DNA of 49,557 bases from Pseudomonadota bacterium (GTDB taxonomy: Bacteria; Pseudomonadota; Alphaproteobacteria; Rhizobiales; Beijerinckiaceae): positions 1 to 49,557 of the forward strand of contig JAJXYV010000068.1 in NCBI GenBank assembly GCA_021780435.1, written 5' to 3'. Below, piece after piece: positions 1 through 19,356 of the stretch (its first letter is position 1; each line of letters starts with the position of its first letter). The position numbers and the translations under genes were made by a program. The notes under the pieces are model-generated. The model did no database searches and was not told the DNA's origin. It was given only the letters and a program-made list of their open reading frames with translations.

Positions 1-1
1 C

Positions 2-1240
2 GCCTTGGCGATCCTCGCCATCGCCGCCGCCGCGCTCGAAGCCCCGCTCTTTCCGATCGACCCTTCGCTGCCGGCGTCAATCCAGGCTGATCTGCTGCGG
101 CAGGCGGGCGACGCGCTGGTTGTCGACGACGACCAGATCGTTGAAATTCAATCCATGATTGCCAGCGCCGCAGGCGCGCCCCTGGCCTATGCGCCGCCTC
201 GAGGCCCCGCCCTGTTCATCGCGACAAGCGGCTCGTCCGGCGCGCCCAAGGCGGCCATTCTGACCGGGGCCAATCTCGCGGCCTCGGCCGCCGCCTCGGC
301 GACGATCACCCCCCTCGATCCGGGCGACCGCTGGCTGGCGACTCTCCCGCTTTTTCACATCGGCGGATTCTCCGTTCTTGCGCGTTGCGCTTTCGCCGGG
401 GCCGATCTGGTTCTCTGCGATGGTTTCGATCCGGAACGAACCCGTTCAATCCTGGCCGCCGAGCGGATCACCCACGTCTCCCTTACGCCAACAATGCTTG
501 CGCAACTTGTCGCGCAAGGCCCAGCGCCGCGCAGCCTTCGGCACGCCCTCGTCGGCGGCGCTTCGCTTACCGCGCAACGCGCGCATGAAGCCGCCGCCTT
601 GGGCTGGCCGGTTCAGCCGACCTATGGGATGACGGAAACAAGCGCGCAGATCGCGACGCTGCCCCGTCTGCCGGAAGGCTGGCGCAGCGGTCAGATGGGA
701 AGGCCGCTGCCCGGCGTTGAAATCGGGTTGACGGCGGACGGACGGCTCAAAGCGCGCGGTCCCACAATCATGCGCGGTTACGCCAATCCGGATCTGGAGC
801 CGGGCGACGGTTTGCGCGACGGCTGGTTCATCAGCAATGATCTCGCCGAAATTTCCGCTTCCGGCGACCTGAGCATCCTGGGTCGCGCCGACGACGTCAT
901 CGTGACCGGCGGCAAGAAGGTTCTGCCCTCGGCGATCGAGGATCTGCTCGGCGCCTGCCCTGGCCTTGGCCGTTTCACAATCGTCGGCCAGCCCGATCCC
1001 CTCTGGGGCCATATCGTCGCCATTCACTACGATGGCGCGATCCCTCCCCGTGAGTTGCTCGACTGGTGCCGGCGTCATGTCGCCGGCGCTCACCGGCCGC
1101 GCGCCGCCCATCGGATCGAGCGCTTTCCTTTGCTCGCCAATGGCAAGGTGGACCGCGTCGCCTTACGCAGACTGGCGCTCAGGCGCGAGTCCCAGACCGG
1201 CGCCGGCGGGAAGAACGATCCGGCCGCCGGCGATTTTTAG
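2..1240 (+). CDS. menE: o-succinylbenzoate--CoA ligase MenE, 5' end cut by window
   Basis: MenE activates o-succinylbenzoate to its CoA thioester in cytoplasmic menaquinone synthesis. The visible part is an ANL-superfamily adenylation enzyme: the phosphate-binding loop TSGSSGAPK lies about 70 residues in, YGMTETSAQ near residue 210, the hinge-region motif GRADDVIVTGGKKV near 295, and the C-terminal NGKVDR lysine motif near 377. The reading frame is open to the first base and begins inside the motif that family members carry about 40 residues from their start, so the true start lies upstream; the TTG at 5 is unlikely to be it. The assignment to MenE rather than another acyl-CoA ligase rests partly on the menFDBC operon alongside. 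Its 3' end overlaps the 3' end of the convergent menC gene by 78 bp. Confidence 0.88.
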   Translation, partial: ALAILAIAAAALEAPLFPIDPSLPASIQADLLRQAGDALVVDDDQIVEIQSMIASAAGAPLAYAPPRGPALFIATSGSSGAPKAAILTGANLAASAAASATITPLDPGDRWLATLPLFHIGGFSVLARCAFAGADLVLCDGFDPERTRSILAAERITHVSLTPTMLAQLVAQGPAPRSLRHALVGGASLTAQRAHEAAALGWPVQPTYGMTETSAQIATLPRLPEGWRSGQMGRPLPGVEIGLTADGRLKARGPTIMRGYANPDLEPGDGLRDGWFISNDLAEISASGDLSILGRADDVIVTGGKKVLPSAIEDLLGACPGLGRFTIVGQPDPLWGHIVAIHYDGAIPPRELLDWCRRHVAGAHRPRAAHRIERFPLLANGKVDRVALRRLALRRESQTGAGGKNDPAAGDF

Positions 1241-2215: not shown

Positions 2216-3052
2216 TCAGGGACGCCTCTTGAACCGCCCGAAATCCGGCGCGCGCTTTTCGACAAAGGCGTTGCGGCCTTCCTGGCCTTCCTCGGTCATA
2301 TAGAAAAGCGCCGTGGCGTTGCCCGCCAGTTCCTGGACGCCGGCGAGGCCATCGGTGTCGGCGTTGAAGCCCGCCTTGAGCACGCGCAGCGCGGTCGACG
2401 AATGGCGCAGCATCTCCCGGCACCAGACCATGGTTTCCGCCTCCAGCCGCGCCAGCGGGACAACCGCGTTGACGAGCCCCATTTCGAGCGCCTGGGCCGC
2501 GTCATATTGCCGGCAAAGAAACCAGATCTCCTTCGCCTTTTTCGTGCCCACCGCGCGCGCCATCAGCCCTGCGCCGTAACCCGCGTCGAAACTGCCGACC
2601 TTCGGCCCGGTCTGGCCGAAGCGCGCATTTTCGGCGGCGATTGTCAGATCGCAGACAAGATGCAGCACATGGCCGCCGCCGATGGCGTAACCAGCGACCA
2701 TGGCGACGACTGGCTTCGGCAACGTCCGGATCATCCGTTGCAGATCGAGCGCGTTGAGATGATTGACGCCGCTTTCGTCGCAATAGCCGCCGTCGTCGCC
2801 ACGAATTTTCTGGTCGCCGCCGGAGCAGAAGGCCTCGGTTCCGGCGCCGGCGAGGATGACGACGCCGATCTCGGCGTCGAGCCGCGCGGCGTGCAAGGCC
2901 GTCATCATTTCCTCGACCGTTTCCGGCCGAAATGCGTTGCGGCGATGCGGACGATTGATGGTGATCTTGCCGACGCCTTCTGCTTTCTCGAACAGAATGT
3001 CACGAAACGCCGCGGCCGTAGCCGGGCGCCAATCGATTGCGGATGTGATCAC
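2216..3052 (-). CDS. menB: 1,4-dihydroxy-2-naphthoyl-CoA synthase MenB
   Basis: MenB is the crotonase-fold enzyme that closes the naphthoquinone ring, converting o-succinylbenzoyl-CoA to DHNA-CoA. The 278 residues show the family signatures: [14 protein letters not shown], the glycine-rich oxyanion-hole segment [28 protein letters not shown], and the C-terminal block [20 protein letters not shown]. The resemblance to the enterobacterial enzyme is close along its whole length. The start is GTG, immediately after the TAA of menD. Position and spacing make it the third cistron of a coupled men operon. Confidence 0.96.
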
Positions 3053-4726
3053 TTATGCGTTCTCCTGACTCGTCGCGAAAAATGTGCGACACAGCGAAAG
3101 GCTGAGCCGCGGATCGATGACGGCATGAACCAATGTCGCGCCCGGCGCATTCAGGCTTTCGGCGACGGCGGCGACACCCTCGGCCCCATTCTCGACGCGC
3201 CGGTAGTCCAGTCCGAAAGAGCGCGCCAAAGCGGCGACGTCGAAAACTTGCGGAGTTCGCCAGCCGCGCTCGAATTCGGGCAAGGCGTTTTGTGGCAGAT
3301 GGTCGAAAATGCCGCCGCCGCCATTGTCCATGACGACGATCGTCAGCGGAAGTTCGCGCGCCAGCAGCAGCGCGTTGACGTCGTGCAGAAAGGCGAGATC
3401 GCCGAGCACGGCGACGACCCGCCCGCGCGCGGAGGCGAGGCCGCAAGCGGTGGAGAGATTGCCGTCGATGCCGCTCAAACCGCGATTTCCGAAACAGGCG
3501 ATCCGTCTGGCGGCGGCGCCGCAGAACCATTCCGCCGCGCGGATCACCAGAGAATTGGCGAGGAAAAGCGTGGCGTCGTCGGGAGGCGATTGGAACAGGG
3601 CGCGAAGCAGCCCGCCTTCGAAGAGAGGACCGGCGGCGCAGACGGCTTCCGCGTTGCGCCGGGCGCTTCGGTCCCGCGCCAGCAAGGCTTCCAGCCAATC
3701 GTCCGGCGCGGGCGCCGCCGCAAGGGCGCGGCACAGGGCGGCAGGGTCGGCGGCCAGGAAATGCGAGGCGATCCGGTCGGGATCGGCGAAGCGCCCATCC
3801 TCGGCAACGACGATCTGGACCGCTGCGGCGTTGGCGCGCAGCCAGGAATGGACCGCCTTGCCGACCGGCGCCGGACCGAAGCGCAACGCCCAGTCGAAGC
3901 GGGGCGCTGCGCGCGCGATCCAGTCGGGAAAGGCGAGAATGCGCGGGTCGTCGCGCCCGTCGAAACGAAGGCCGGACAAGATGTCGGCGACGATCGGAGC
4001 GTTGAGGCGGCGCGCGAGAGCGACGACGTCATCACGAAAATCCTCGCCCAGATCTTCAGGCCCGCAAAAGATGACGCCGCGACCGCGCAGCAAGGCTGCG
4101 ACGCGTTCGAGTTGAGGCGTGTCGAGCGTGGAGCGGCCATGCAAAACCTCGGGCCGTTTGGCGCCCGACGAACAGGGCGACGCATCCCGAGGCGCCAGCG
4201 GCTCGCGAAACGGCGCGTTGACATGAACCGGGCCCGCGACGGGAAACCGGCTCTGCTCCACCACGCGGGCCGCGAAATCAGACAACCATCCATCCTCGCC
4301 CTCCGGCGGCGGCAAAGCGTGGAAGGCGCGGACATGGCGGCCGAACAGACCGATCTGGTCCATGGTCTGATTGGCGCCGCAATTCTGCAATTCCGGCGGA
4401 CGGTCCGCCGAGATCAGGATCAGAGGAACCTTCGCCATATCCGCCTCGACCACGGCGGGCGCCCAGTTGGCGACCGCCGAGCCGGAAGTCGCGATCAGGA
4501 CCACGGGACGTTTTTCCGCCTTGGCGAGCCCCAGCGCGAAAAAGCCGGCCGAGCGTTCGTCGAGCACGACATGGGTCTTGAGATCCGGGCGCCGCAGCGC
4601 CGCGAGAGTGAGCGGCGTCGAGCGCGATCCGGGCGAGGCCACGACCCGGCGCACGCCGGAACGCGCCAGACCGTCGAACAACGCGGCCGCCCAGCGAAAG
4701 CCCAGTTCGGCGTCGCCCGCAGTCAT
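3053..4726 (-). CDS. menD: SEPHCHC synthase MenD
   Basis: MenD is the thiamine-diphosphate enzyme that joins isochorismate and 2-oxoglutarate, the committed step to menaquinone. The 557 residues match the usual length. The N-terminal domain has SPGSRSTPLT and the catalytic-glutamate segment DERSAGFFALGLAKA; a central block reads NQTMDQIGLFG; the C-terminal ThDP/Mg domain has GLSGIDGNLSTACG and GDLAFLHDVNALLLA. The frame stays open upstream to 5071, but the ATG at 4726 is the right start: it overlaps the menF stop as ATGA and places the first conserved helix at residues 4 to 20. Translation is probably coupled to menF upstream and menB downstream. Confidence 0.95.
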   Translation of the reverse strand: MTAGDAELGFRWAAALFDGLARSGVRRVVASPGSRSTPLTLAALRRPDLKTHVVLDERSAGFFALGLAKAEKRPVVLIATSGSAVANWAPAVVEADMAKVPLILISADRPPELQNCGANQTMDQIGLFGRHVRAFHALPPPEGEDGWLSDFAARVVEQSRFPVAGPVHVNAPFREPLAPRDASPCSSGAKRPEVLHGRSTLDTPQLERVAALLRGRGVIFCGPEDLGEDFRDDVVALARRLNAPIVADILSGLRFDGRDDPRILAFPDWIARAAPRFDWALRFGPAPVGKAVHSWLRANAAAVQIVVAEDGRFADPDRIASHFLAADPAALCRALAAAPAPDDWLEALLARDRSARRNAEAVCAAGPLFEGGLLRALFQSPPDDATLFLANSLVIRAAEWFCGAAARRIACFGNRGLSGIDGNLSTACGLASARGRVVAVLGDLAFLHDVNALLLARELPLTIVVMDNGGGGIFDHLPQNALPEFERGWRTPQVFDVAALARSFGLDYRRVENGAEGVAAVAESLNAPGATLVHAVIDPRLSLSLCRTFFATSQENA

Positions 4727-6069
4727 GCGCTCTCCTCGATAAGCCGCAACAGATTCTCCATTTTGAGGCGGGTTTCGTTCCACTCCGCCTCGGCGCGGGA
4801 TTCCGCCATGATTCCGGCGCCGGCCCACAGCCGCGCCTCGCGCCCGCGCAGGAAAGCCGAGCGAAGCACGACCGCCGCCTCGCCGTCGCCGTCGAGATCG
4901 ACCCAGCCGGCAAGGCCGGTATAGAGACCGTCGCGCGACTCTTCGACCCGCTCCAGCCAGGCCCGCGCCGCCTCGCGTGGAAAACCAAGCACGGCTGGCG
5001 TCGGATGAAGTCGCTCGATCACGTCGAACAGATCGAAGCCGGGCCGCAGCCGACCGGAAACCGGCGTCCACAAATGCTGCAAGCCAAGAAGGCGCATGAC
5101 CATCGGAACCGGCGCGCGATTGACGTCACTGCACAATTCGCCCAGGGCGTCGGCGATGAAACGCGCGACGATTTCGTGTTCGCGCCTTTCCTTGGGCGAG
5201 GCGAGCATGGCCGAAGCGGCGCGCCGGTCCTCGGCGGGATCGTCATGGCGGCGCGCCGTTCCCGCGAGGGCATGGCTTACGACAAGATCGCCGCGTCTTT
5301 CGGCCAGAAGCTCGGGGCTGTCCGCGATGACCACGCCTTCCTGCAAGGGAATCTTGAACCGCCGCCCCGTCTGCCTCGTCTCGGCCATCCCGCGCAGCAG
5401 GCGATCAGCGTCGAAAGGAGCCGACGACGTCACGGTCATGTGGCGCGCGAGGACGACTTTCGAAAAGCGACCGGATTTGATTCCCGCGACAGCCTCTTCG
5501 ACCCGCGCGCGCCAGGATGAAAAGTCAGGCCGCGGCGCGCGCTCGCGCCGTCCGCCCGAACGCGGCCCTGGCGGCGGCGCGGACTCCAGAAGCCGCATCC
5601 AATCGGCCTCCGCGGCCTCCGCTCCATTCGCGTCCCGCAGGCCATTCAAATAGAGCCATTGCCCGCCGCGGCCCGACCTCAGGACGATTTTCGGCAGGCC
5701 AAGCCGGGTCGCGCCGCTGAAGGGCGGCGCGGTCAGCCGCGCCGAGGGCGGCGGGCCAGGATCGCCGAACGTCTCCAAATCGCGCCGTAGATAACGCCAG
5801 CCAGCGACGTCCATTTCGGCGCCGACGAGGCCAAGACCGCAAAAGCTGGCCGATCGCGCAGGCGCCTGCCAGATCCAGTCGCCATGGCTTCCATCGAAAA
5901 GCGGGGAAAGACTCTCGGGAACCCCCAAGACAACGCTGAAGGCGCGACCGGAGGGCAGGCGCGCGACCCTCGGCAGAACCCGATGGAGCTCGCCTCTCAA
6001 CCAGACCCGCCATGGCGGCGGATCGGCGGTGGAGGCTATCGCACAGGAACTGGTGTTGATCTGCCGCAA
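4723..6069 (-). CDS. menF: isochorismate synthase MenF
   Basis: MenF converts chorismate to isochorismate, the branch point from aromatic metabolism. It is a chorismate-binding enzyme of about 448 residues. The C-terminal half carries the family motifs: the catalytic lysine in SGRFSKVVLARHM, the block HPTPAVLGFP, GLYTGLAGW, and the Mg-binding segment GAGIMAESRAEAEWNETRLKM. The N-terminal half is poorly conserved, as is usual. No ATG lies at the N-terminus; the TTG at 6069 is the best candidate and the frame is open further upstream, so the start is uncertain. It is the first gene of menFDBC and is divergent from the SCO gene, sharing a 130-bp intergenic region that holds an FNR-like palindrome. 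A salicylate or siderophore isochorismate synthase is unlikely given menD, menB and menC. Confidence 0.92.
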   Translation of the reverse strand: MRQINTSSCAIASTADPPPWRVWLRGELHRVLPRVARLPSGRAFSVVLGVPESLSPLFDGSHGDWIWQAPARSASFCGLGLVGAEMDVAGWRYLRRDLETFGDPGPPPSARLTAPPFSGATRLGLPKIVLRSGRGGQWLYLNGLRDANGAEAAEADWMRLLESAPPPGPRSGGRRERAPRPDFSSWRARVEEAVAGIKSGRFSKVVLARHMTVTSSAPFDADRLLRGMAETRQTGRRFKIPLQEGVVIADSPELLAERRGDLVVSHALAGTARRHDDPAEDRRAASAMLASPKERREHEIVARFIADALGELCSDVNRAPVPMVMRLLGLQHLWTPVSGRLRPGFDLFDVIERLHPTPAVLGFPREAARAWLERVEESRDGLYTGLAGWVDLDGDGEAAVVLRSAFLRGREARLWAGAGIMAESRAEAEWNETRLKMENLLRLIEESA

Positions 6070-6132
6070 AGGACGCCGCCGCCAAGAATTGTTCGCTGAA
6101 GAGCAGCTTGCCTCAGACTCCCGACGCGAAAT

Positions 6133-6146
6133 TTGTTGATCGTCAA
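6133..6146. promoter_or_regulatory. FNR/FixK-type site between menF and the SCO gene
   Basis: TTGTT-GATC-GTCAA matches the FNR consensus TTGAT-N4-ATCAA at 8 of 10 positions. It lies in the divergent menF/sco intergenic region. Towards the SCO gene, AAAACT at 6168 to 6173 is centred 31 bp from the palindrome; towards menF, CAAGCT is centred 32 bp away. Both hexamers are weak -10 matches, so which direction is controlled cannot be decided from sequence. Confidence 0.35.
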
Positions 6147-6199
6147 AGACGGGAGCCGCAATCCCGCAAAACTGTCGCCGATCGATATGGGAGGTTTGG

Positions 6200-6769
6200 A
6201 TGGATCGCCGCGCCCTCTTGCTGGGAACATGTTCCTTCGCGCTGAGCCTGAAAGTCGCATTTGCCGACGACGCCGAGCCTTCTTATGGCGGAACCTTCAT
6301 CCTCGTCGATCAGCATGGGCGCCCCGTCACGGACGAAAACTATCGCGGGAAATACATGCTGATCGCCTTTGGCTACACCCATTGCCCGGACATCTGTCCG
6401 ACCGTGCTGGCGACCATGGCCAACGCCTTGAACCGGCTCGGCCCCGAGAGCGATCGGATCACGCCGATCTTCATCACATTGGACCCCGCGCGCGACACGC
6501 CCGCCGTCCTGGCTGACTATGTCTCTTCCTTCTCGCCGCGGATGGTCGGATTGACCGGCCCGGACGAATATGTCGAAAGCGTCGCGAAGAAATACCGGAT
6601 CAAATATGAAAAGCATCCCGAGAAGAACGGGGACTATTCGATCGACCACACGGCCGCGATCTTCCTCATGGGCCGCGACGGGCAATTTCTCGAACGTTTC
6701 AACGACGGCATGAAAACGGAGGATATGGTGGAGCGAATCCGGGCGCGCCTGAAAAGCGACAAGCCGTGA
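6200..6769 (+). CDS. SCO1/SenC-family copper chaperone
   Basis: SCO proteins are periplasmic thioredoxin-fold Cu chaperones that metallate CuA centres. This protein of 189 residues has an N-terminal signal segment (about residues 1 to 22, ending near AFA), the copper-binding C-x3-C at C62/C66 in HCPDICP, and the third ligand H150 in DHTAAIFLM. A strong GGGAGG ribosome-binding site precedes the ATG by six bases. It overlaps the next gene as GTGA, so a copper chaperone and a quinone methyltransferase are made from one mRNA. Given the nos operon next door, NosZ CuA is the likely client; a cytochrome oxidase CuA is the alternative. Confidence 0.92.
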   Translation: MDRRALLLGTCSFALSLKVAFADDAEPSYGGTFILVDQHGRPVTDENYRGKYMLIAFGYTHCPDICPTVLATMANALNRLGPESDRITPIFITLDPARDTPAVLADYVSSFSPRMVGLTGPDEYVESVAKKYRIKYEKHPEKNGDYSIDHTAAIFLMGRDGQFLERFNDGMKTEDMVERIRARLKSDKP

Positions 6770-7488
6770 AAGCGCCAACCGACCAGACCTTCGGCTATGA
6801 GAATGTCGCGCCGGAGGAAAGGCGCGCGCGAATCCGCCGCGTCTTTGCGAATGTCGCCGAACGCTATGACCTGATGAACGATCTGATGTCTTTCGGGATC
6901 CATCGACTTTGGAAGCGCGCCCTGATTGGCGCGGCGGCGCCGAGGTCAGGAGAAACCCTGGTCGATCTCGCGGGAGGCACGGGCGACGTCGCCGCGCAGC
7001 TGGGCGGCCCCGACCGGCGGGCCATCGTCTGCGATCCGAGCCCGGAGATGATGGAAGCCGGGCGACGGCGCGGATTGCCGCAGGTCGAATGGATTGCGGG
7101 CGAAGCCGAGGCCCTGCCTTTCGCCGATGGAACGATCGATTGCCTGACGATCTCCTTCGGTATTCGCAACGTCACCCGGCTGCGCGAGGCGCTGCGCGAA
7201 ATCCATCGCGTCCTCAAGCCCGGCGGGCGTTTCCTGTGCCTCGAATTCTCGCGCCCGCAGGCTTGGCTCGCGCCGGCTTACGACCTTTTTTCCTTTCAGG
7301 TCATCCCCCGACTCGGCGCCCTGATCGCGCGCCAGCCTGAAGCCTATGAATATCTCATCGAATCGATCCGGCGTTTCCCCGACCAGCGCGAACTGGCCGA
7401 TTTATTCGCCGAAGCCGGCTTCGCCTCGGTGCGCTGGCGCAATCTCTCCTTCGGGATCGCCTGTATCCACAGCGGCGTGAAGGGCTGA
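6766..7488 (+). CDS. menG: demethylmenaquinone methyltransferase (UbiE/MenG family)
   Basis: This SAM-dependent methyltransferase of 240 residues performs the last step, methylating demethylmenaquinol; UbiE enzymes also methylate a ubiquinone intermediate. Visible signatures are FANVAERYDLMNDLMSFG near the start, SAM motif I DLAGGTGDVA near residue 66, SFGIRNVTRLREALREIHR, and the LKPGGRFLCLEFS motif. The start is GTG, overlapping the SCO stop as GTGA. Its place among men genes favours a dedicated MenG role. If the host makes ubiquinone it should carry another ubiE elsewhere, which would make this a second copy. The gene converges on tlpA with a 12-bp gap. Confidence 0.92.
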   Translation: MKAPTDQTFGYENVAPEERRARIRRVFANVAERYDLMNDLMSFGIHRLWKRALIGAAAPRSGETLVDLAGGTGDVAAQLGGPDRRAIVCDPSPEMMEAGRRRGLPQVEWIAGEAEALPFADGTIDCLTISFGIRNVTRLREALREIHRVLKPGGRFLCLEFSRPQAWLAPAYDLFSFQVIPRLGALIARQPEAYEYLIESIRRFPDQRELADLFAEAGFASVRWRNLSFGIACIHSGVKG

Positions 7489-7500
7489 ACGCGCTTTTCC

Positions 7501-8016
7501 CTATTCCTCGCCGAACAGCCGTTCGAACAACGTCGTAATGCGGCTGCTTTCCCAGTTGATCGGCCCTTCGATGCGCGCGACGATCCGGCCGTGGCGGTCA
7601 AGCACCAGCGCGCTTGGTATGCCGACGAAGCCGAGCTTCTTGGCCGCCTCGCGCGAGGGATCGGTAAATTTCGCGAGATGGATGATGCGCCGCTCGGCAT
7701 AAAAGGCCGCGGCGGCCTCCAGTCCGTTCGCATCGATCGACACCGGAACGACGACCAGCCCGCGGCTTCCCCAAAGCGCCTGCAGACGGTCCAGGGCGGG
7801 AATTTCATCGCGGCAAGGGAGGCACCAGCTCGCCCAGAAATCGAGCAGCACAACCTTGCCGGAAAAAGCGTCGATCGTCGTCGGGAGACCCGCCGCATCG
7901 CGAAATTCCAAATGCGGCGGCGCGCCGCGATCCAGCGCCAAGGCCCAACGCGACGGCAGCCACAAGGCGGCGCCAAGCGCAAGAATGGACAATCCGGCGA
8001 GAACGGCGCGCTTCAT
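7501..8016 (-). CDS. TlpA-like periplasmic thiol-disulfide oxidoreductase
   Basis: This is a thioredoxin-fold protein of 171 residues with an N-terminal hydrophobic anchor or signal (about residues 4 to 28) and the redox motif WCLPC at C65/C68, followed by the cis-proline segment VGIPSALVLD. TlpA/ResA-type proteins keep periplasmic cysteines reduced, including those of SCO proteins, CuA sites and apocytochromes c. It overlaps menA as ATGA and is the last gene of the nos-menA run. I infer that it serves NosZ, SCO or the two cytochromes; its exact partner cannot be read from sequence. Confidence 0.87.
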   Translation of the reverse strand: MKRAVLAGLSILALGAALWLPSRWALALDRGAPPHLEFRDAAGLPTTIDAFSGKVVLLDFWASWCLPCRDEIPALDRLQALWGSRGLVVVPVSIDANGLEAAAAFYAERRIIHLAKFTDPSREAAKKLGFVGIPSALVLDRHGRIVARIEGPINWESSRITTLFERLFGEE

Positions 8017-9809: not shown

Positions 9810-10261
9810 TTCGCTTCCTCCTTCGGCGCGCAGTGCTTCTTCTTCTGTGCGTCCTGGCGCATCGCGGCGAAATCGACGGCTCCTTCGCCGGGCGCGGGAA
9901 CGGCCGCGAAATCATAGTTCATCGGGCTTCGTCCGGGGCGATAGAAGGCATGGCGCGCGTCGAGCCAGGTCTTGCCGTCCTCGCTGTCCATGACCCAGAT
10001 TTCCTTCGCGCCATCGAGGCCAGGACCTTGCATGTCCAGCCAGTTCAGGGCGTCGCCGACATCGTCGAACTTGTGAACCGAATTGTCCTTGGCGAGGCGG
10101 ATCTCCGCCGCATAGTTCGGCGTCGAAATGATCATCCCGCACATCTCGCAGACGTCCCGGCCATATTTGATTTCGACCGGCCCGGGGCCGTCGCTGCACG
10201 CCGCCAGCAAAAAAAGCACGGCGGGCGCAAGCCGCCTAAGCATTGACAGGGCCGGACGCAT
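9806..10261 (-). CDS. nosL: NosL, copper-binding lipoprotein
   Basis: NosL is a periplasmic Cu(I)-binding lipoprotein that supplies copper for NosZ. With the ATG at 10261 it has 151 residues: a short hydrophobic leader ending in the lipobox LLAAC, then the conserved segment YGRDVCEMCGMIIS holding the putative copper ligands, and a central KFDDVGDALNW. The frame stays open upstream to 10525, but that part is antisense-like sequence over nosF. GGAG seven bases before 10261 supports this start; an ATG at 10243 is the alternative. The gene starts inside the last codons of nosF. Confidence 0.9.
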   Translation of the reverse strand: MRPALSMLRRLAPAVLFLLAACSDGPGPVEIKYGRDVCEMCGMIISTPNYAAEIRLAKDNSVHKFDDVGDALNWLDMQGPGLDGAKEIWVMDSEDGKTWLDARHAFYRPGRSPMNYDFAAVPAPGEGAVDFAAMRQDAQKKKHCAPKEEAK

Positions 10262-11217: not shown

Positions 11218-12189
11218 CTACAGCAATTTGTTCAGGCCCTTGATGTCAAAGGTCAGGGCCTTGGTCGGGCAGACTTCCACGCACATGCCGCAGCGGGTGC
11301 AATCCGCGCCGATATTGATGCGGACATCGTCCGCATAGCCGATCTTGGTCATTTCCAGCACATGCGGCACCATGCAGACGTCGCGGCATTTGCCCTCATG
11401 CAGGCAATTGGCGAGGCTGTAGGTCACGGTGATCGGCGCGGCCGAACCGACAAAGCCATAGGTCATGCCGATCGGGCAAATGTAGCGGCACCAGAACCGG
11501 CGCGAGTAGAAGACCTCGATCAGCAGCAGAACGCCGACCCATATCAAGGCCAGCGACGCTCCATAGGTGAAGGCGCGCGACAGGATGCCGACCGGCGAGA
11601 TGACTTCGAAGACCGTATAGCCGGTGGCGAAGGCAAGCGCCGCGAAGATCGCATAGAGCACGGTGCGCGCGCCGCGATGAAGCGCATGGTCTTTGACCAG
11701 CCCGCGCACGGCGAGCCGCAGGTGCAGCATCTCCGCCCATTCCCCAAGCAGGTGATAGGGACAGGCCCAGGCGCAGAAGCTCCGGCCGCCGACCAGCCAC
11801 CAGATGAATACGACGGTGGCGGTGCCGATCAACAGATTGATCACGACATGCTTGTAGGCCAGCATGACCTGCAGCGCCGAGTTCACGTCGGCCATATGGA
11901 AGCCGACGAAACGAGAAGCGGTCAGCGCGCCTTCGACGAGCTGGACGTCGGCGCGATAGGACAGCACAAAAAGCAGGTTGATGACGATGATCGAGATCCA
12001 GCGCCAGTTCCGCCAGAAATGGCTTCGATAATTCTGTTCGCGCTCCTCGGCGATGCGGCGCTTTCGATCGGCTTTGCCTTCCTTGCTGTTCTGCCTCGCG
12101 AATTCGGCCTGCGCCGCAGGCGTCAGGACCGTGGGTTTCCGCGGCGCCCGCCCGAGCATGATGGCAAGATTGTCCAGTAGCCTGCTCAT
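11218..12189 (-). CDS. nosH: NosH, NapH-like quinol dehydrogenase membrane subunit
   Basis: NosH is a polytopic membrane iron-sulfur protein of the NapH family, which with NosG oxidises menaquinol and delivers electrons towards the periplasm. The 323 residues begin with a basic cytoplasmic stretch, then about five membrane helices, with the C-x3-CP motifs FCAWACP and CRYICPIG between helices. The C-terminal part has CLHEGKCRDVCMVP and the ferredoxin motif CTRCGMCVEVCP. The ATG at 12189 is chosen because GGAG lies six bases upstream and the nosG stop ends one base earlier; the frame is open a little further. It takes the role that NosR fills in clade I clusters. Confidence 0.92.
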   Translation of the reverse strand: MSRLLDNLAIMLGRAPRKPTVLTPAAQAEFARQNSKEGKADRKRRIAEEREQNYRSHFWRNWRWISIIVINLLFVLSYRADVQLVEGALTASRFVGFHMADVNSALQVMLAYKHVVINLLIGTATVVFIWWLVGGRSFCAWACPYHLLGEWAEMLHLRLAVRGLVKDHALHRGARTVLYAIFAALAFATGYTVFEVISPVGILSRAFTYGASLALIWVGVLLLIEVFYSRRFWCRYICPIGMTYGFVGSAAPITVTYSLANCLHEGKCRDVCMVPHVLEMTKIGYADDVRINIGADCTRCGMCVEVCPTKALTFDIKGLNKLL

Positions 12190-12190
12190 C

Positions 12191-12961
12191 TCACGCTCCG
12201 TGTTGCCCCGGCCACACGGCGCGCGCATCGACAACGATCGCCGCGGGCTGCGCCGGACAGATCGTCTCGCAAAAGCCGCAGCCGACGCACGACTGGTGGA
12301 CGACCGGGGTCTTTCTCTTGTCGTCGGGCTCGCCGGTCAGCTTCTCCAGGGTGATCGCGCCTTCGATCGGGCATTCGCGCACGCAAAGGTCGCAGAGCTC
12401 CAGATCGTATGGGTGCTCGGCGAGTTCGATCGGCTTCCAGCGATTGACCGACATGTAGCGATGCAGGATGGTCGAATCGTCGGCGCGCGCGACGCCCTTG
12501 AAGCCGCGCCCCTGGCGCGCCAGACAGCGGTCTGGCCCCGCGAGGCGCGCGACGCCCATCCGCACCTGATCCTTCGTCGAAATATCGTGCGACAGCGCGC
12601 CGGTCGGACAGGCGAGGACGCATTGCACGGCGTCGCAGGAGAAGTCGCAGCCCTGCTTGCGCGCATCGATATAAGGCGTTCCGATCCCGTAGCCTTCGTC
12701 AATGTCGGCGAGATGGATCGCCTTGACCGGGCAGACCTGGACGCACTGGCCGCATTTGATGCAGGCGGCCAGAAATTCGTGTTCGACGAGCGCGCCGGGC
12801 GGTCGCAATCTCTCGCGCCAACGCCGGACGACGGGTATGAAGCCCAGCATCGCCAGCCCGGTGAAAAGACCCGCCGCGACCGTGGAGCGCAGCAATCGCC
12901 GCCGATCCTCGCTCTTGAGCTTTTTCCCGTTGCGCTCGAACAATCGATCGAAGAGCGACAT
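12191..12961 (-). CDS. nosG: NosG, NapG-like ferredoxin subunit
   Basis: NosG is the polyferredoxin partner of NosH. The 256 residues hold four cysteine clusters for [4Fe-4S] centres: CIKCGQCVQVCP, CDFSCDAVQCVLACP, CDLCVRECP and CVGCGFCETICP. The N-terminus has a basic RRR followed by a hydrophobic stretch (RRRLLRSTVAAGLFTGLAML), consistent with Tat export and membrane anchoring as in NapG. The ATG at 12961 (MSLFDRLF) is the sensible start although the frame is open upstream. The gene begins two bases after the nosD stop and ends one base before nosH. Confidence 0.92.
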   Translation of the reverse strand: MSLFDRLFERNGKKLKSEDRRRLLRSTVAAGLFTGLAMLGFIPVVRRWRERLRPPGALVEHEFLAACIKCGQCVQVCPVKAIHLADIDEGYGIGTPYIDARKQGCDFSCDAVQCVLACPTGALSHDISTKDQVRMGVARLAGPDRCLARQGRGFKGVARADDSTILHRYMSVNRWKPIELAEHPYDLELCDLCVRECPIEGAITLEKLTGEPDDKRKTPVVHQSCVGCGFCETICPAQPAAIVVDARAVWPGQHGA

Positions 12962-12963
12962 GT

Positions 12964-14211
12964 CTAACCTCCTGCCGCCGCGCCATCGTTGTCGAAGGGA
13001 TGCGTCGCCGGCTGCTTGTCGCGCAGGACCAGCACGGGCCTGGAGAAGGGCGCGAGCCTCAGAAGAAAATCGAGGCTTTCGAGCGCGGGCGAACCGCGGA
13101 AGAAGCTCGCCAGGGGCGTGTTCGCCCAGAGCTTGTCGGCGTAGGAATAAATTTCGAAAGGCGTCTCGCCGACCCCGGAATGTTTGCGATCGAAGCCCTG
13201 GTAGTCGTCCCAGTAATTGCCGTCCCATTGGCTCGCCGTCGCGGCGCCGCCGTCCTGAACCATCACGTCGGTGAAATTGCCGACGAAATCATTGCGCGAA
13301 AAAATATTGCTCTCCTGATTGCGGTGATATTGCACGCCTATGCCGTTGAAGGCGAAGCGATTGCCGCGAATGACATTGGGGCGGTCGGGATCGGAGGGCG
13401 AATCGTCGTTGTAGAGACCGATGGCGCAATCGAGAATGAGGTTGTTCTCCAGGGTGACGTTATCCGCCTCCTTGAGGCCAATTCCCTTGCCGACGGCGCC
13501 GTTGCTGCGCAGGATCCGATTCCCGACAAGGCGGAGATCGCTGGAGAACATCGAGAAAATACCGACGCTGTCCTCGATGTAGGTGTTGCCCTCGGCGACA
13601 TTGCCGCTCGCATACATGAAATGCGTTCCGTAGCGGCCGCCTTCGATCTCATTGCCCTTGAGGAGATTGCGGGTGGAATATTCGAAGATCACGTCCCGAT
13701 GGGCAAAGACCTTGTTGCCTTCGATGCGGTTGTCATTCGACCACCAGACGCGGATCCCGTCGCCGCGCATGTCCTCCGAGCCCTTGCCGCCGAGGATTCG
13801 ATTGTCGCGCAGGATGTTGTTGTCCGACCGCTCCACATCCACGCCGGTCAGGCAATCCTCCAGGACATTGTCCTTTACGATGCTGAAGCTGGCGTTCTGC
13901 AGCAAAATGCAGGCGTCGCCGGCTTCGTGCCGCTGACCGCTATGTTCGATCTTCAGGCCGGCGATCGTGATCTGGGCGCCGTTCACGGTCAACACCGTTC
14001 CCGCGTCGTTGCCGGTCACCACGACAGAACCGGAGCCGTCCAGCGTCATCGCCTTCCCGAGGACGACCGGCCCGGAATAGCGGCCGGCCGGAGGGCGCAG
14101 CACGCCGCCCTCGGGCGTCGCGTCCACCAGCGGCTGCAGGGGCGGCGCTTCGTCGGCTCGGGCGGCGGCGGCGGCGAACAAGGCGATCGCCGCCAACACG
14201 ATCTGTTTCAT
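12964..14211 (-). CDS. nosD: NosD, periplasmic beta-helix copper-maturation protein
   Basis: NosD is the periplasmic partner of NosFY in CuZ assembly. This protein of 415 residues has a clear Sec signal (MKQIVLAAIALFAAAAARA) and then a right-handed beta-helix built from degenerate repeats of the form NxIxGN, the CASH-domain pattern, from about residues 60 to 330. The ATG at 14211 overlaps the nosB stop as ATGA; upstream frame continuation is not coding. Beta-helix proteins also include pectate lyases and epimerases, but the operon and the periplasmic signal make NosD secure. Confidence 0.94.
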   Translation of the reverse strand: MKQIVLAAIALFAAAAARADEAPPLQPLVDATPEGGVLRPPAGRYSGPVVLGKAMTLDGSGSVVVTGNDAGTVLTVNGAQITIAGLKIEHSGQRHEAGDACILLQNASFSIVKDNVLEDCLTGVDVERSDNNILRDNRILGGKGSEDMRGDGIRVWWSNDNRIEGNKVFAHRDVIFEYSTRNLLKGNEIEGGRYGTHFMYASGNVAEGNTYIEDSVGIFSMFSSDLRLVGNRILRSNGAVGKGIGLKEADNVTLENNLILDCAIGLYNDDSPSDPDRPNVIRGNRFAFNGIGVQYHRNQESNIFSRNDFVGNFTDVMVQDGGAATASQWDGNYWDDYQGFDRKHSGVGETPFEIYSYADKLWANTPLASFFRGSPALESLDFLLRLAPFSRPVLVLRDKQPATHPFDNDGAAAGG

Positions 14212-14867
14212 TGCCCGCCCCGCGCGGCGCGCAACTGCTTGCGCCGCAGCAGCACGGCGACGACGAGAGCCAGTGACGACGCGACCAGAAGGCCGAAGCC
14301 GTAGGTCGGATAGGAAAAAGTGGAGAATTGCGCGACCTTGCCCTCGCCGAACACCGTCGGCATGAAGGGCTTCACGGTGAAGGCGCCCATGGGGCTCAGA
14401 GTGTGGCCGAAATACCAGAGCCAGCCCGAATAATCGATGACGAAGCCCAAAGGCACGAGAATCGCCGGCAGCGCGAGCAGCCACCACAGCGGGCCGCTGT
14501 AGAACATGAAGGCGACCAGCATCAGCCCGAGGGCGATAAAGATATAGGGCGCCAGCGCGATCTCAAATTTCGCGCCTTCGGCGATCGGCTTCATGCCGAT
14601 GTAATGATTGATCGTGTTCATCTCGTGGACGCAATCCAACGTCTCGTCCGACTCGATTTCCGCCCTCGGGCGGGTGTGACAGCCGTTCATGACGCCGTTG
14701 AAATGGAACTCGATGCGGATGCCGTCGGGAAAGGCGTCTGCTGGATATTGCGGCGCCGTGAGGGCAACCCACCAGATCGGAGAGAAAAAGGCCATGGCGA
14801 GCAAGGCCATGGCCGCGAGGGTCAACAGGCGGAACGGCGCCGCGCCTGGTTTTCCGGAGTTATTCAT
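14208..14867 (-). CDS. nosB: NosB-type membrane protein of clade II nos clusters
   Basis: Clade II nos clusters carry a small polytopic membrane protein of unknown biochemical role between nosZ and nosD, called NosB. This protein fits by position and build: 219 residues, one helix near the N-terminus (about 14 to 36), a periplasmic domain with CHTRPRAEIESDETLDCVHE and NTINHYIGMKPI, then three further helices. The paired C and H residues and the NHYIGM motif of the loop look functional. The ATG at 14867 has GGAG six bases upstream. It overlaps nosD as ATGA. No enzyme fold is recognisable. Confidence 0.82.
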   Translation of the reverse strand: MNNSGKPGAAPFRLLTLAAMALLAMAFFSPIWWVALTAPQYPADAFPDGIRIEFHFNGVMNGCHTRPRAEIESDETLDCVHEMNTINHYIGMKPIAEGAKFEIALAPYIFIALGLMLVAFMFYSGPLWWLLALPAILVPLGFVIDYSGWLWYFGHTLSPMGAFTVKPFMPTVFGEGKVAQFSTFSYPTYGFGLLVASSLALVVAVLLRRKQLRAARGGQ

Positions 14868-15102: not shown

Positions 15103-15840
15103 TCACTCGAAATCGGGATTCTTCCAGCCGCTTGGCGCGAGCTTGTCCTTGGGCGGCGACAGACGCGACACGTAGTCGAGCACGTCCACCGTATCCTTGT
15201 CCGAGAAATTCTTGATCTGCGCCATCATGTCAGGATTGGCGTTGCGGCGCTTGCCTTCCTTGATCCATTTGTACTGGCGCAGCAAATATTCGTAATGCTG
15301 GCCCTGGATGCGCGGATAATATTTCTCCTCATTGCCCTCGCCGTTCTCACCATGGCAGCGCACGCAATTGTCGGCATAGAGCTTCTTGCCGTGTTCGAGA
15401 TCCGTGCCCGGGCCTTTGCCGTTGTCGGGGTTCATCGGCAGGTTTGCGATATAGGCCGTCACGTCCGCGACCGATTGCTCGCCGCCGATCTCGGACGTCA
15501 AGGCGAAGGGATACATGGTCGGATTGTCGCGGTTGCCTTCGCGAATATCGGTCAACTGCTTGATGAGAACCGTGCGGTGCTGTCCCGCGAGTTCGGGGAA
15601 GGTCCCGTCGATACGACCCCAACCTTCCGGCATGTGGCAGGCCGAGCAAACCTCGTAGACTTCCTTGCCGTGCTTGAGATCGGGCGTCAGTTTCAACGCC
15701 GCGTCGCGCTCGCCGCCCTGCACCATCCATTCATGCTTCTTGCCTTCGGCGTCCACTGTGACCTTTGCCGCATCCTCGGCGTGAGCGATTGGCGCGCCCA
15801 AGGCGAGGACCGAGGCCAAGGCGATTGCGAATCTCTTCAT
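15103..15840 (-). CDS. diheme c-type cytochrome, second of two in the nos operon
   Basis: The 245 residues begin with a Sec signal (about 1 to 21, ending in HAE) and hold two class I cytochrome domains with CSACH at 65 to 69 and CVRCH at 159 to 163. The layout resembles cytochrome c4 or c5-type periplasmic carriers. The start at 15840 is preceded by GGAGAG. It sits between the first cytochrome gene and nosB. In epsilonproteobacterial clade II clusters two cytochromes (NosC1, NosC2) lie between nosG and nosH instead, so I assign function by role, not by symbol: it probably carries electrons from NosGH to the CuA of NosZ. Confidence 0.87.
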   Translation of the reverse strand: MKRFAIALASVLALGAPIAHAEDAAKVTVDAEGKKHEWMVQGGERDAALKLTPDLKHGKEVYEVCSACHMPEGWGRIDGTFPELAGQHRTVLIKQLTDIREGNRDNPTMYPFALTSEIGGEQSVADVTAYIANLPMNPDNGKGPGTDLEHGKKLYADNCVRCHGENGEGNEEKYYPRIQGQHYEYLLRQYKWIKEGKRRNANPDMMAQIKNFSDKDTVDVLDYVSRLSPPKDKLAPSGWKNPDFE

Positions 15841-15983: not shown

Positions 15984-16634
15984 TTATTTCGCGGCGCTTC
16001 GATCGACCTGCGACAGATATTCGGACAGCGCGTCGACGTCCGCGTCGCTGACGCGCTTGACCATCGCCGTCATCAATTTGGAACGGCCGTTATTGCGGAC
16101 GCCGTCCCGAATCTCCTTGATCTGAAGGGCGAGATATTCCTTCTTCTGCCCGCCGATGACCGGATAGCCCGCCGTCGGCTTGATCCCTTTCGCGCCGTGG
16201 CAGCCAACGCAGCCGGATTTCGCATAGATGGCTTCGCCCTCGGTCGCCTTGGCGGCGTCGCCCGGCTTGACCGGCGGCGACGGCAAGGCTGCGAGCCAGG
16301 CCGCGATCGTCTTGAGTTCGTCGTCGCTGACGACGCCCATCACATCCTTCATCGCCTGGGTGCGCGGATAGCCGCGCGCGTCGGGCCCTGAAACACGCTT
16401 GCCCGATGCGATGTCCTTCATCTGCTCATAGAGATAGGCCTCGTTCTGAGCGGCCAGATTTGGATACATGAGGATCGCTTTCGAGCCGTCCCTGCCATGG
16501 CAGGCCACGCAGGTCCGGCTCATGAAAAGCTGCTTGCCGCCGGGCGCGTCCTCGGCCCGCGCCGTTGCGGACAAACCGGCAAAAATCCCCGCCAGCGACA
16601 ACGCCAGCAACGTTTGTCGTTTCCAAGAAGCCAT
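15984..16634 (-). CDS. diheme c-type cytochrome, first of two in the nos operon
   Basis: This secreted cytochrome of 216 residues has a signal peptide (about 1 to 27, ARAEDA), and two heme motifs, CVACH at 42 to 46 and CVGCH at 142 to 146, each with a following methionine ligand candidate. The two halves are similar in layout, as in cytochrome c4. It follows nosZ after 65 bp that contain a strong hairpin, and is followed by 143 bp before the second cytochrome. Role inferred: electron carrier to NosZ. It differs from its neighbour in lacking the charged insert before the first heme. Confidence 0.87.
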   Translation of the reverse strand: MASWKRQTLLALSLAGIFAGLSATARAEDAPGGKQLFMSRTCVACHGRDGSKAILMYPNLAAQNEAYLYEQMKDIASGKRVSGPDARGYPRTQAMKDVMGVVSDDELKTIAAWLAALPSPPVKPGDAAKATEGEAIYAKSGCVGCHGAKGIKPTAGYPVIGGQKKEYLALQIKEIRDGVRNNGRSKLMTAMVKRVSDADVDALSEYLSQVDRSAAK

Positions 16635-16667
16635 GTGCGGCCTCGCTCCGATGGATATTTGGGAAAA

Positions 16668-16692: not shown

Positions 16693-16699
16693 TCGGGAC

Positions 16700-18997
16700 T
16701 TACTGCGCCTTCTTCGCGCCGTTCTGCTCGAGATAGGTCTTGGCGCGCAGGCCGATGTCGGCGGCCTTCACCTGATATTGCCACCACTGGTTGGCCCACA
16801 GCATCGCGTTCTGCCAGTCCTTCTTCTTGGCGAAGTCGTCGGCCTTGGCGCGCGCGTCCTTGGCGAAATTAAGCTGGTCGGTCGCATCCGTGACCAGCCC
16901 CACCACCGTCGGGAAATCCTTGTAATTGACGGACGTGATATAGGCGACGACGCCGTCGATCACGTCCTGGGTCTTCAGGTTTTCCTTGTACTGGTTGTTG
17001 AAATCCGCCTCGGTATAGGTCTGGCCCGTGCTGTATGCGGCCGGCTGGGCGACCGCCCCGCCCTTGGGCGCGACCATCAGATAGCCTTCCATCTCCAGAT
17101 GCAGCGCCGAGCAGAACTCGGTGCAGTAATAGGGATAGACGCCGGCCTTGGCGCTCTCGATCGTCGCGGACGCGGTCTTGCCGGGCTCCAGCGACAATTG
17201 GACGTCATGCTGGGCGATGGCGAAACCATGAGTTTCGTCCTCCGCGCGCTCCGCATTGGTCCAGTGGAAGATCACCTTGTCGCCTTCCTCCGCCTGGACG
17301 ATTTCCGGGTTGTAATGCGAGCGGATGACCGTCCCGAAGACCTCGACCTTGCCCGGCGAACGATCGACATGCTCCGAGCCCGGACGCACCGCATAGGGCG
17401 AGGCTTCCTCGGTGCGGCTGTTGGTGCCGTATTTGTAACGGATCAGCGGCTTGATCTTGTCCAGGGAGATCGCCACCGCGTAATGCGGTTCGCCAAGCGG
17501 GAGCGGCATGTCATAGAGCAGCTTCATCTTGTCGCCGCTGATGTCGATCAGCTCCTCGTTCTGCGGATGCAGCGGACCGACCGGGTCGAAGCGATCTATG
17601 GCGAGCTTGTTGAGCGCGACGAGATATTTGCCCTTCGGATGCGCGGTGTCGCCTTCCATCGTCATCAGATGGCCGATGTTGTAGTAGACCGGGATCTTGT
17701 CGAGGACCTTGCCTTCGCAATAGTCCCACTTCACCACCTGGCTGTCGACATAGAGCGAGGTGTAGACAATGCATGGCTTGCTGTCGAACTGGTTGTGCAG
17801 CGGGCCGAGGCCGAGCGCGACCTGGGTGTGCAGCGATTCCTTCATATCGAGGATCGGAATGCCGTAATCGTCCTTTCCGGCGAATTTCTTGGCGTCGACC
17901 AGCTTCATGATCTTGTCGAAATCGAACACCGAGTCATGGGTGTCGAGCTTGCCGCTGACGATCACGAATTTGCCGTCGGGCGACACATCGACGCCATGCG
18001 GGCTCTTCGGCTCGGGCACGAGATAGAGCAGGCCCTCATCGATCGCGGTCTTGAGCCGGATCACTGCCATGCCATTGATCTTTTCGACCTTGCCGGCCTT
18101 GAAGACGGCTTCCGCCTTCTTCCAGTTGATGATGTGCAGAAGGTCCGTGTCGTGAGCCGAACAACCCGCCTCGAAGGGCGGACGGCCGGATTCGATGCCG
18201 CCGACATAGCGTTCGGTGCACAGCGAATTGGTGAACGACCAATCATTCGACGGACCCTTGCCCGTCGCGGTCAGATCCTGGCTGTAGGGCGGAAGTTCGA
18301 TGGTGAAGGAATTCTCGGGCTCGATCAGGCCCTTGTCCCGATTGAATTTCCAGTAGGTGATGCCGCCGCGATAATCGTTGAACTTGTCGAGCCCCTGGTA
18401 TTTGCGGTCGAGCGTTCCCGGATATTGCGACGCCTCAACGACATATTCGGTATTGTTGGTGACGAAGGCGCCGCCGTGATCCGTCGTCAAAATCGGATTG
18501 ACGACGATCTGATGCGTCTCGAAATCCTTGAGGCTGATGACCGCGATGCGCGGCGTCGATTTGTCGTTGATGAACAGATATTGTCCATCATAGTCGCCAT
18601 CGGTCTTCGAAATGTTGGGATGATGGGTGTCGCCCCAGGTGATCGGCTTGCCCTCGGGCGTCTTGGAGCTTTCCAGGATCGCCTTCGACTCGTCGTCATA
18701 TCCGTAGCCCTGCCACGGCTCGCGGTTGAAGACGCCGATATATTTGATGATGCGCATCGACGGGATGCCGAAGACGATGACGCCGCCATATTGGCCGCCC
18801 GAGGCGAAGGACAGGAATTCGTCGCGACCGCCGGTCGGCGTGTAGGTCTTCGCGGCGGCAAGCAAATCCTGATCTGTCAGGTTGCGCCGTTTCATCACAT
18901 CCTGAAGCGACTCGTCCGCGAAGGCCGAACCGACCAAAGAGACAGTCACACCCAGCACGCCCGCGAGCATGGTGGTTTTCATCAATCTGGATTTCAT
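16700..18997 (-). CDS. nosZ: nitrous oxide reductase, clade II type
   Basis: NosZ reduces N2O to N2 in the periplasm. The 765 residues start with a Sec signal (MKSRLMKTTMLAGVLG, cleaved near SAFA) with no twin-arginine motif, the hallmark of clade II. The beta-propeller domain supplies the CuZ histidines: DTHHPN at 123 to 128, TTDHGG, SPHGVD, GLGPLHNQFD, NIGHLM and GEPHYA. The cupredoxin domain has the CuA set C625, C629, H633 and M636 in CTEFCSALHLEM plus the upstream HGFAI histidine. About 129 residues follow M636, longer than usual; this tail contains no CXXCH, so it is not the heme domain of epsilonproteobacterial cNosZ. The ATG has AGGGGG upstream. No clade I partners (nosR, nosX) are present. 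Confidence 0.96.
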   Translation of the reverse strand: MKSRLMKTTMLAGVLGVTVSLVGSAFADESLQDVMKRRNLTDQDLLAAAKTYTPTGGRDEFLSFASGGQYGGVIVFGIPSMRIIKYIGVFNREPWQGYGYDDESKAILESSKTPEGKPITWGDTHHPNISKTDGDYDGQYLFINDKSTPRIAVISLKDFETHQIVVNPILTTDHGGAFVTNNTEYVVEASQYPGTLDRKYQGLDKFNDYRGGITYWKFNRDKGLIEPENSFTIELPPYSQDLTATGKGPSNDWSFTNSLCTERYVGGIESGRPPFEAGCSAHDTDLLHIINWKKAEAVFKAGKVEKINGMAVIRLKTAIDEGLLYLVPEPKSPHGVDVSPDGKFVIVSGKLDTHDSVFDFDKIMKLVDAKKFAGKDDYGIPILDMKESLHTQVALGLGPLHNQFDSKPCIVYTSLYVDSQVVKWDYCEGKVLDKIPVYYNIGHLMTMEGDTAHPKGKYLVALNKLAIDRFDPVGPLHPQNEELIDISGDKMKLLYDMPLPLGEPHYAVAISLDKIKPLIRYKYGTNSRTEEASPYAVRPGSEHVDRSPGKVEVFGTVIRSHYNPEIVQAEEGDKVIFHWTNAERAEDETHGFAIAQHDVQLSLEPGKTASATIESAKAGVYPYYCTEFCSALHLEMEGYLMVAPKGGAVAQPAAYSTGQTYTEADFNNQYKENLKTQDVIDGVVAYITSVNYKDFPTVVGLVTDATDQLNFAKDARAKADDFAKKKDWQNAMLWANQWWQYQVKAADIGLRAKTYLEQNGAKKAQ

Positions 18998-19356
18998 TTT
19001 TGCCCCCTTCGGCAAAAGCCCTCGCTCGCGCAGCGAAAGCTGAACGCCGGCCGCCTCGCGCCCGCGAAGCCACATCAGCGACGTGAACCTAGGCGGACGA
19101 GGTCAATACGCCTTGATTTTTGTTAATCTGAATATGTGCATCCAATTTTTTCTTTTCTAATCAATGCGGTGTCATTTTGTCGCGGGGCGCAAATCCAGAT
19201 TGCGCTCGCCATCGGGAATCGCGGCGAACGCAGTCAATGAAGCGGAAGCCGAGGACCGGCGCGGAACCAAAAATGCACGAGCCGGTCGCCTCTCCATCGA
19301 GCACCGGGAGCGGGCCGCCGATTTTCCCACGGCGCCTGTCTTGCGCTGGCGGATCT
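18998..19356 (-). promoter_or_regulatory. nosZ upstream region
   Basis: These 359 bases separate nosZ from the pentapeptide-repeat gene on the same strand. The part near 19,110 to 19,170 is markedly AT-rich for this genome and holds the FNR-like palindrome and a candidate -10; the predicted transcript start near 19,078 gives a leader of about 81 bases. I see no gene in the rest. Confidence 0.5.
19113..19126 (-). promoter_or_regulatory. FNR/FixK-type site upstream of nosZ
   Basis: TTGAT-TTTT-GTTAA on the plus strand (TTAAC-AAAA-ATCAA towards nosZ) matches the FNR consensus at 8 of 10 positions. On the minus strand TAGGTT at 19091 to 19086 fits TAnnnT and is centred exactly 31 bp downstream, the spacing expected when the activator sits at -41.5. 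This supports anaerobic activation of the nos-menA operon by an FNR, FixK or DNR-type protein. Confidence 0.5.

Follow-up and report, generated by a model that had tools for sequence, protein, structure and literature searches.

Menaquinone biosynthesis genes adjoining a clade II nitrous oxide reductase cluster in an alphaproteobacterial genome

Among the known biological sinks of nitrous oxide (N2O), a major greenhouse gas, the principal one is N2O reductase; the natural limits on its activity are debated. Here, we analyze a stretch of 49,557 nucleotides (the window; the whole of contig JAJXYV010000068.1 from assembly GCA_021780435.1) in which a clade II nos cluster, encoding N2O reductase and its accessory proteins, adjoins genes for menaquinone biosynthesis by the Men (o-succinylbenzoate) pathway. 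The closest described counterpart of the nos half is found in Wolinella succinogenes, where electrons follow a menaquinol route through Nos cytochromes (Hein et al. 2017, as cited in an excerpt of PMC11102522). Men clusters have been acquired several times by Pseudomonadota (PMC11707229, excerpt), and Lactiplantibacillus plantarum, which keeps only the late genes of the pathway, contains menaquinone after growth with 1,4-dihydroxy-2-naphthoate (DHNA) (PMC10746273, excerpt). A further paper, in its excerpted text, concerns demethylmenaquinone in extracellular electron transfer for denitrification and not gene linkage (PMC12480950). Among the titles and abstract openings listed from the open-access literature, we found no account of a linkage between nos and men genes.

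We consider it probable, though by no means assured, that the window holds a clade II N2O-respiration operon onto which menaquinone biosynthesis has been joined. By analogy with Wolinella, electrons would pass from menaquinol to NosGH, then to two cytochromes c, and finally to NosZ with formation of N2. MenA, and probably MenG, would be wired into the nos genes, perhaps within a single transcription unit, so that the low-potential quinone rises together with the reductase; the SCO and TlpA proteins encoded among them probably act in the maturation of copper sites. In the window, menA is the penultimate gene of a tight minus-strand run (nosZ, two cytochromes c, nosBDGHFLY, menA, tlpA), 42 bp from nosY and overlapping tlpA by 4 bp. 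Across a sample of 249 Hyphomicrobiales genomes (the order sample), MenA scores over its model cut-off in 14 of the 15 genomes with clade II nosZ, as compared with 11 of the 234 others (Fisher p 2e-15, a test that ignores kinship).

The men-nos block and its contig

The window is contig C249 of a metagenome-assembled genome (MAG), here called G000, that totals 3.18 Mb over 276 contigs and is 93% complete; the host is an alphaproteobacterium of the order Hyphomicrobiales, a case that the first-pass annotation of the window had allowed for. Genes were identified with Pfam and NCBIfam models, except for nosB, which was recognized only by recurrence and position. Starts of open reading frames (ORFs) were reset by eye from the translations, such that nosZ, for example, occupies 16700-18997 (minus strand, as are all genes of the nos run) and does not extend up to 19126. 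NosZ exceeds the cut-off of the Sec-type model TIGR04246 (824 bits, cut-off 625) and falls short of that of the Tat-type model TIGR04244 (376 bits, cut-off 625); by inspection for CXXCH it has no heme motif, and the tree agrees with its assignment to clade II. Next come two di-heme cytochromes c (15984-16637 and 15103-15840, starts reset), each matching PF00034 twice and carrying two CXXCH motifs. They are followed by a membrane protein (14208-14867) that matches no Pfam family and is found again at the same place in other nos loci, which we take to be nosB, and by nosD (12964-14214, start reset; PF05048, 140 bits). The putative menaquinol-oxidizing pair comprises nosG (12191-12964, start reset), a NapG-like ferredoxin-type protein with four CX3CP motifs that scores 152 bits, below the cut-off of 269, against the NapG model NF007012, and nosH (11218-12189, start reset), a NapH-like membrane 4Fe-4S protein with Fer4_5 and Fer4 matches and three CX3CP motifs. 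The nos genes proper end with the ABC ATPase gene nosF (10236-11126; PF00005, 90 bits), nosL (9806-10246, start reset by eye; PF05573, 25.8 bits, cut-off 24) and nosY (8982-9809; ABC2_membrane_2, 74 bits). With nosB (by recurrence), nosG, nosH and both cytochromes inside the cluster, the assignment to clade II stands. No NosR is found among the genes of the block, all of which were assigned; the genome outside the block was not searched for it.

Between nosY and tlpA (7501-8016, minus; PF08534, 60 bits) lies menA, the gene for DHNA polyprenyltransferase (8013-8939, minus; TIGR00751, 174 bits, over the cut-off). On the plus strand, a gene for a SCO1/SenC copper chaperone (6200-6769; PF02630, 175 bits) overlaps by 4 bp the methyltransferase gene menG/ubiE (6766-7488; TIGR01934, 266 bits, over the cut-off), which is of the genus type in its tree. 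The genes that make DHNA lie on the other side of the intergenic region between the divergent menF and SCO genes (6070-6199), in which a possible, weakly matching FNR-like site is seen at 6133-6146. They are menF for isochorismate synthase (4723-6069, minus; TIGR00543, 265.5 bits, over the cut-off), menD for 2-succinyl-5-enolpyruvyl-6-hydroxy-3-cyclohexene-1-carboxylate synthase (3053-4726, minus; TIGR00173, 419 bits, over the cut-off), whose start was reset to the ATG at 4726 to give a 4-bp overlap with menF, menB for DHNA-CoA synthase (2216-3052, minus; NF005637, 476 bits, over the cut-off), and menC for o-succinylbenzoate synthase (1163-2215, minus), which is barely over the cut-off of TIGR01927 (131.0 bits, cut-off 130.55). 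The last, menE for o-succinylbenzoate-CoA ligase (2-1240, plus), has lost its 5' end at the contig edge and is named from its position and its match to Pfam AMP-binding (positions 60-383 of 384). MenF, MenD, MenC, MenE, MenB, MenA and MenG are thus all encoded in the block, and the first-pass annotation was right about its gene order and in finding no unrelated gene within it. No menH or menI (DHNA-CoA thioesterase) was identified among the window ORFs scanned; the remainder of the genome was not searched. Because G000 is fragmented and the window is a whole contig, the block may extend further to the left.

Does this contig belong to its MAG? Mis-binning is countered by composition and by similarity to a genus mate, G327. 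The tetranucleotide correlation between the whole window and a 215-kb sample of G000 is r = 0.93; the men part alone gives r = 0.67, within the range of 24 of the genome's own 6-kb pieces (median 0.77, minimum 0.49), and the stretch from SCO to nosZ is 79-89% identical in nucleotides to G327, menA and gaps excepted. A plasmid origin was likewise rejected, as neither NosZ nor MenD had a counterpart at 60% identity or above in a collection of 72,556 plasmid records. The best plasmid NosZ (50%) is on the Thermomicrobium roseum megaplasmid (L056), where menD lies about 70 kb from nosZ and no NosG or NosH match is seen near nosZ; the menD of Azospirillum B510 has no annotated nos genes nearby.

To the right of nosZ, a pentapeptide-repeat protein (19360-19920) clusters with ORFs from three other nos loci, and a palindrome, TTGACCATTGTCAA, at 19983-19996 resembles an FNR/NNR site next to nos, upstream of an ORF with a hemerythrin domain. 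Shared regulation by FNR was considered and is not used as evidence here: 20 FNR-like matches with at most two mismatches occur as against 9 expected, mostly in coding sequence.

Recurrence beside clade II nosZ and the possible use of menaquinone

The link between menaquinone genes and clade II nos is wider than the first-pass annotation had claimed. In the order sample, NosZ of clade II is over the cut-off in 15 genomes and MenA in 25, while menD (E limit 1e-40; 1e-30 in other genomes) is matched in 8. Counted by hand from the same lists at the level of genera, MenA occurs in each of the ten genera that have clade II nosZ, and in 1 of the 102 others (g73). Physical proximity exceeds chance as well, with 10 of the 15 clade II nosZ genomes having menA no more than 12 kb from nos genes; it was not seen within that distance in G060, G097, G166, G062 and G128, and in the last two nosZ is at a contig end or on a short contig. 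A second set comprised 79 named nos loci around the closest NosZ sequences, each with 10 kb of flank and divided by record title. Here nosY was matched in 56 loci, menA in 22 (the match in L211 being weak) and menG in 16; either menA or menG is present in 18 of 26 alphaproteobacterial loci and in 7 of 52 others, with L189 counted apart.

The layouts at these loci fall into a few recurring forms. Three genomes (G027, G379 and G137) have the order SCO-menG-tlpA-menA-nosY ... nosZ, identical to that of the window, while G320 has no menG match at that position and the contig of G165 ends after tlpA. A menG-menA pair lies directly upstream of nosZ in G012, G049, G086 and the Rhodobacterales-type loci L153, L201 and L212, with only menG at that place in G097 and in Rhodobium orientis (G060), an isolate that has menD as well as clade II nosZ. 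The pair follows nosY in Magnetospirillum-type loci, as does tlpA-menG-menA in two Rhodoferax loci. Considering 46 nos loci, the ORF clusters of the neighborhood include SCO, TlpA, menG and menA; genes for copper chaperones and Crp/Fnr proteins, and genes of the nap, nir and nor types, were recognized there by eye. At each of the loci L167, L195, L196, L210 and L213, nosZ is present twice with a few kilobases between the copies, and in a Hydrogenophilales MAG (L258:12-3397, G261:C31) menD adjoins a 4Fe-4S pair resembling NapGH or NosGH.

Adjacency of the whole DHNA block is much rarer. In G312, of the same family and another genus, menC-B-D-F, SCO and menE adjoin a nos cluster of opposite orientation, with genes of the cytochrome-d1 and NorB types further downstream. 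The window and G312 share the menF/SCO neighborhood and have sister NosZ proteins, so the two cases may be a single event. In the betaproteobacterial Rhodocyclaceae MAG STA_62 (L213), menE and menCBDF, convergent as in the window, lie upstream of the two nosZ genes. Altogether, the DHNA block was found near nos in only 3 of 20 genomes with menD and clade II nosZ (G000, G312 and G270), a lower bound set by limited flanks.

That low count is one of several observations that weigh against tying menaquinone to clade II nos. Neither menA nor menG is found within 10 kb in 8 of the 26 alphaproteobacterial and 45 of the 52 other loci, and among 35 clade II nosZ genomes that lack menD, 8 have no MenA over the cut-off, and three of these lack any match. 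Outside the clade II nosZ genomes, MenA is found in G413 (of the window's genus, and likewise without menD) and in seven genomes of g73. Finally, the nos operon of G327 lacks menA and has no DHNA genes nearby, which shows that the linkage is not required.

Perhaps menaquinone serves other ends altogether (nitrate reduction, for example, or the photosynthetic reaction centre of relatives), while its adjacency to nos is a by-product of the clustering of anaerobic genes. We regard this as rather unlikely. In its favor, of the 13 menD genomes recovered from the order sample and from a sample of 149 genomes of the family, 10 have reaction-centre genes; nap- or nar-type genes lie near several nos loci, and G312 has the downstream cytochrome-d1 and NorB-type genes. 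On the other hand, menA is inside the nos run and not merely nearby, and within the order sample MenA over the cut-off is confined to the ten clade II nosZ genera and g73. The window contig showed no nap genes, though not every ORF of it was scanned, and G049, 84% complete, has a reaction centre with no menD match. That genome combines a reaction centre with clade II nosZ and a menA-menG pair beside nosZ (contigs C93 and C85).

Among the 13 menD genomes, clade II nosZ is present in 6, both features in 3, and at least one in all 13; G000, G327 and G312, in which no reaction centre was found, all have clade II nosZ. That every menD genome has one or the other, taken together with the gene order, makes N2O respiration the best guess for what menaquinone would serve in G000. 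No reaction centre was found in G000, a point to be set against the fragmentation of the MAG, as the absence may be an assembly gap.

Late menaquinone genes in genomes without menD

How could menA and menG be of use in genomes that lack menD? Among 26 clade II nosZ genomes without menD that were tested, MenA is over the cut-off in all except G128, menA lies within 12 kb of nos in 24, and menG does so in 19. Thirteen of the 26 had been chosen for having menA near nosZ, so that only the figures from the order sample are unbiased. None of the 26 has MenB over the cut-off, whereas all seven menD genomes tested do; G413 has neither. Matches to MenB below the cut-off, at 216-318 bits, occur in four (G320, G379, G027 and G255); the window's own MenB falls in this range when scored against the BadI model. 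Ten of the 13 G-coded genomes in this group are at least 94% complete and four of the other records are not titled as MAGs, making missing data an unlikely cause of the absent DHNA genes.

The futalosine route was rejected as the source of the naphthoquinone, with MqnC over the cut-off in none of 249 and none of 40 genomes, nor in any of the 26, of which G255 and G262 have matches below it. Such lesser matches occur in 24 of the 249 genomes and 4 of the 40, many of them in open frames of about 800 amino acids, which we take to be other radical-SAM proteins (FbiC/CofH). In G279, a deltaproteobacterium by record title, the match comes near the cut-off (409 against 428 bits). The genus g73 (family f44; for example L079 and L087), with MenA over the cut-off and no menD, has an MqnC-like match of 330-348 bits, also below the cut-off.

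Taken together, these counts from genome sequences suggest that N2O respiration in the menD-less clade II nosZ genomes may depend on DHNA from outside. We therefore put forward, as a tentative proposal only, that many ubiquinone-type Proteobacteria use for clade II N2O respiration a dedicated menaquinone pool, which nos-adjacent menA and menG complete and which, in most of the genomes sampled, is built on DHNA taken up from neighbors. If this is so, a requirement for menaquinone or its precursor is to be expected in many alphaproteobacterial N2O reducers, climate-relevant N2O reduction would hinge on DHNA cross-feeding, and genomes with DHNA genes next to nos, such as that of the window, would be the self-sufficient exceptions. 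The four records without MAG in their titles (Defluviimonas nitratireducens, Maritimibacter sp. HL-12, Bradyrhizobium sp. Y36 and Paramagnetospirillum kuznetsovii) suggest isolates in which the need for menaquinone or DHNA could be examined.

It is also possible that the menD-less genomes obtain DHNA by an unknown route, or that their MenA and MenG make a different prenylated quinone from a precursor other than DHNA. We judge this explanation improbable. It would account for the 25 clade II nosZ genomes that have MenA over the cut-off with no MenD match and neither MenB nor MqnC over the cut-off. However, three such orphan MenA proteins have a DHNA prenyltransferase model as their best NCBIfam match (over that model's own cut-off in one of the three) and exceed the TIGR00751 cut-off in all three cases, and two orphan MenG proteins exceed that of TIGR01934. 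In addition, no further quinone-type gene was recognized near nos among the first 60 single-linkage ORF clusters present in at least four of the 46 loci, a weak negative because the two largest clusters are lumps of 195 and 451 ORFs.

Separate histories and the comparison with known systems

The family sample contains five genomes with clade II NosZ over the cut-off: G000, G327, G312, G320 and G379. Within the window's genus, six genomes were looked at, and menD is present in five (G000, G327, G363, G391 and G433) and absent from G413. Three of the five, G363, G391 and G433, have a photosynthetic reaction centre and no clade II nosZ over the cut-off, and their men cluster has the window's own order (menE on the plus strand, menCBDF on the minus strand, menG plus, menA minus). 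In these phototrophic relatives the cluster is found together with the reaction centre and presumably functions with it. G327 has the same nos island as the window (NosZ 92%), while its menE and menCBDF lie on a second contig and its menA on yet another. The flanks of that island (L246:204-3965 and L247:9075-12219, G327:C54) carry a NarG-type gene and a U32 peptidase with UbiD; the peptidase is UbiU/V-like by eye and, with UbiD, possibly serves anaerobic ubiquinone synthesis.

In the trees, the window falls within the genus clade for MenD (99/94) and MenA (100/100) and groups with the genus for MenG (99/98), where a rival grouping is not rejected (p 0.11). For MenA, a grouping of the window with the nos-linked clade from other genera is rejected (approximately unbiased test, p 0.001), although that group was picked after the tree had been seen. 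In a quick tree, by contrast, NosZ groups with that of G327 and then with that of G312, so the men and nos halves differ in history. G000 also has a second menA (G000:C225:463-1311, L128), 71% identical to that of the window and collinear with the menA sites in G327:C22 and G413:C1. Considering that different genera have MenA of differing lineages in the slot between nosY and tlpA, repeated or replaced recruitment into the operon would fit.

The first-pass annotation had proposed a self-contained unit, nos with its own menaquinone pathway, acquired jointly from one donor by a ubiquinone-only alphaproteobacterium. This is very improbable: complete adjacency in the window, with G312 and L213 as second and third cases, speaks for it, and the placement of the L213 MenD in an otherwise alphaproteobacterial clade (100/100) suggests that men blocks may move, but relatives carry the men genes elsewhere with no tie to nos, menD being present in five of the six genomes of the genus, including three that have no clade II nosZ over the cut-off, MenD, MenA and MenG follow the genus while NosZ does not, and GC content differs between the men and nos parts (0.68 against 0.62), a weak point; a recent joint transfer is thus contradicted, and an older one requires loss of nos in the sampled phototrophs. 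What remains of the proposal is the physical tie between men and nos genes, without the shared donor or the newly imported module.

The window block looks like the men cluster of the genus joined to a nos cluster already carrying menG, and would combine DHNA-making genes (menE, menCBDF) native to the genus with an operon of other descent. In G000 the men cluster may have come to adjoin nos by recombination via the menG/menA pair common to both kinds of cluster.

How does this arrangement relate to the described systems? Like the clade II cluster of Wolinella succinogenes (with the NosG-C1-C2-H module), the window has nosZ, nosB, nosD, nosG, nosH, two cytochromes c, nosF, nosL and nosY; it differs in the attached menA, menG, SCO and TlpA genes, in a NosZ without heme motif and in the adjacent DHNA genes. 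With the Men clusters of PMC11707229, as excerpted, it shares men genes that stand at a single locus and are thinly spread over the phylum. Searched for the words 'nos' and 'nitrous', the text of that paper returns neither, whereas in the window menA, menG and indeed the whole block adjoin nos. The orphan genomes, for their part, resemble L. plantarum, a case of known DHNA uptake, in keeping late enzymes while the genes that make DHNA are absent (PMC10746273, excerpt). In the orphan genomes, which are Proteobacteria, uptake of DHNA is only putative, and the late genes adjoin an N2O reductase operon.

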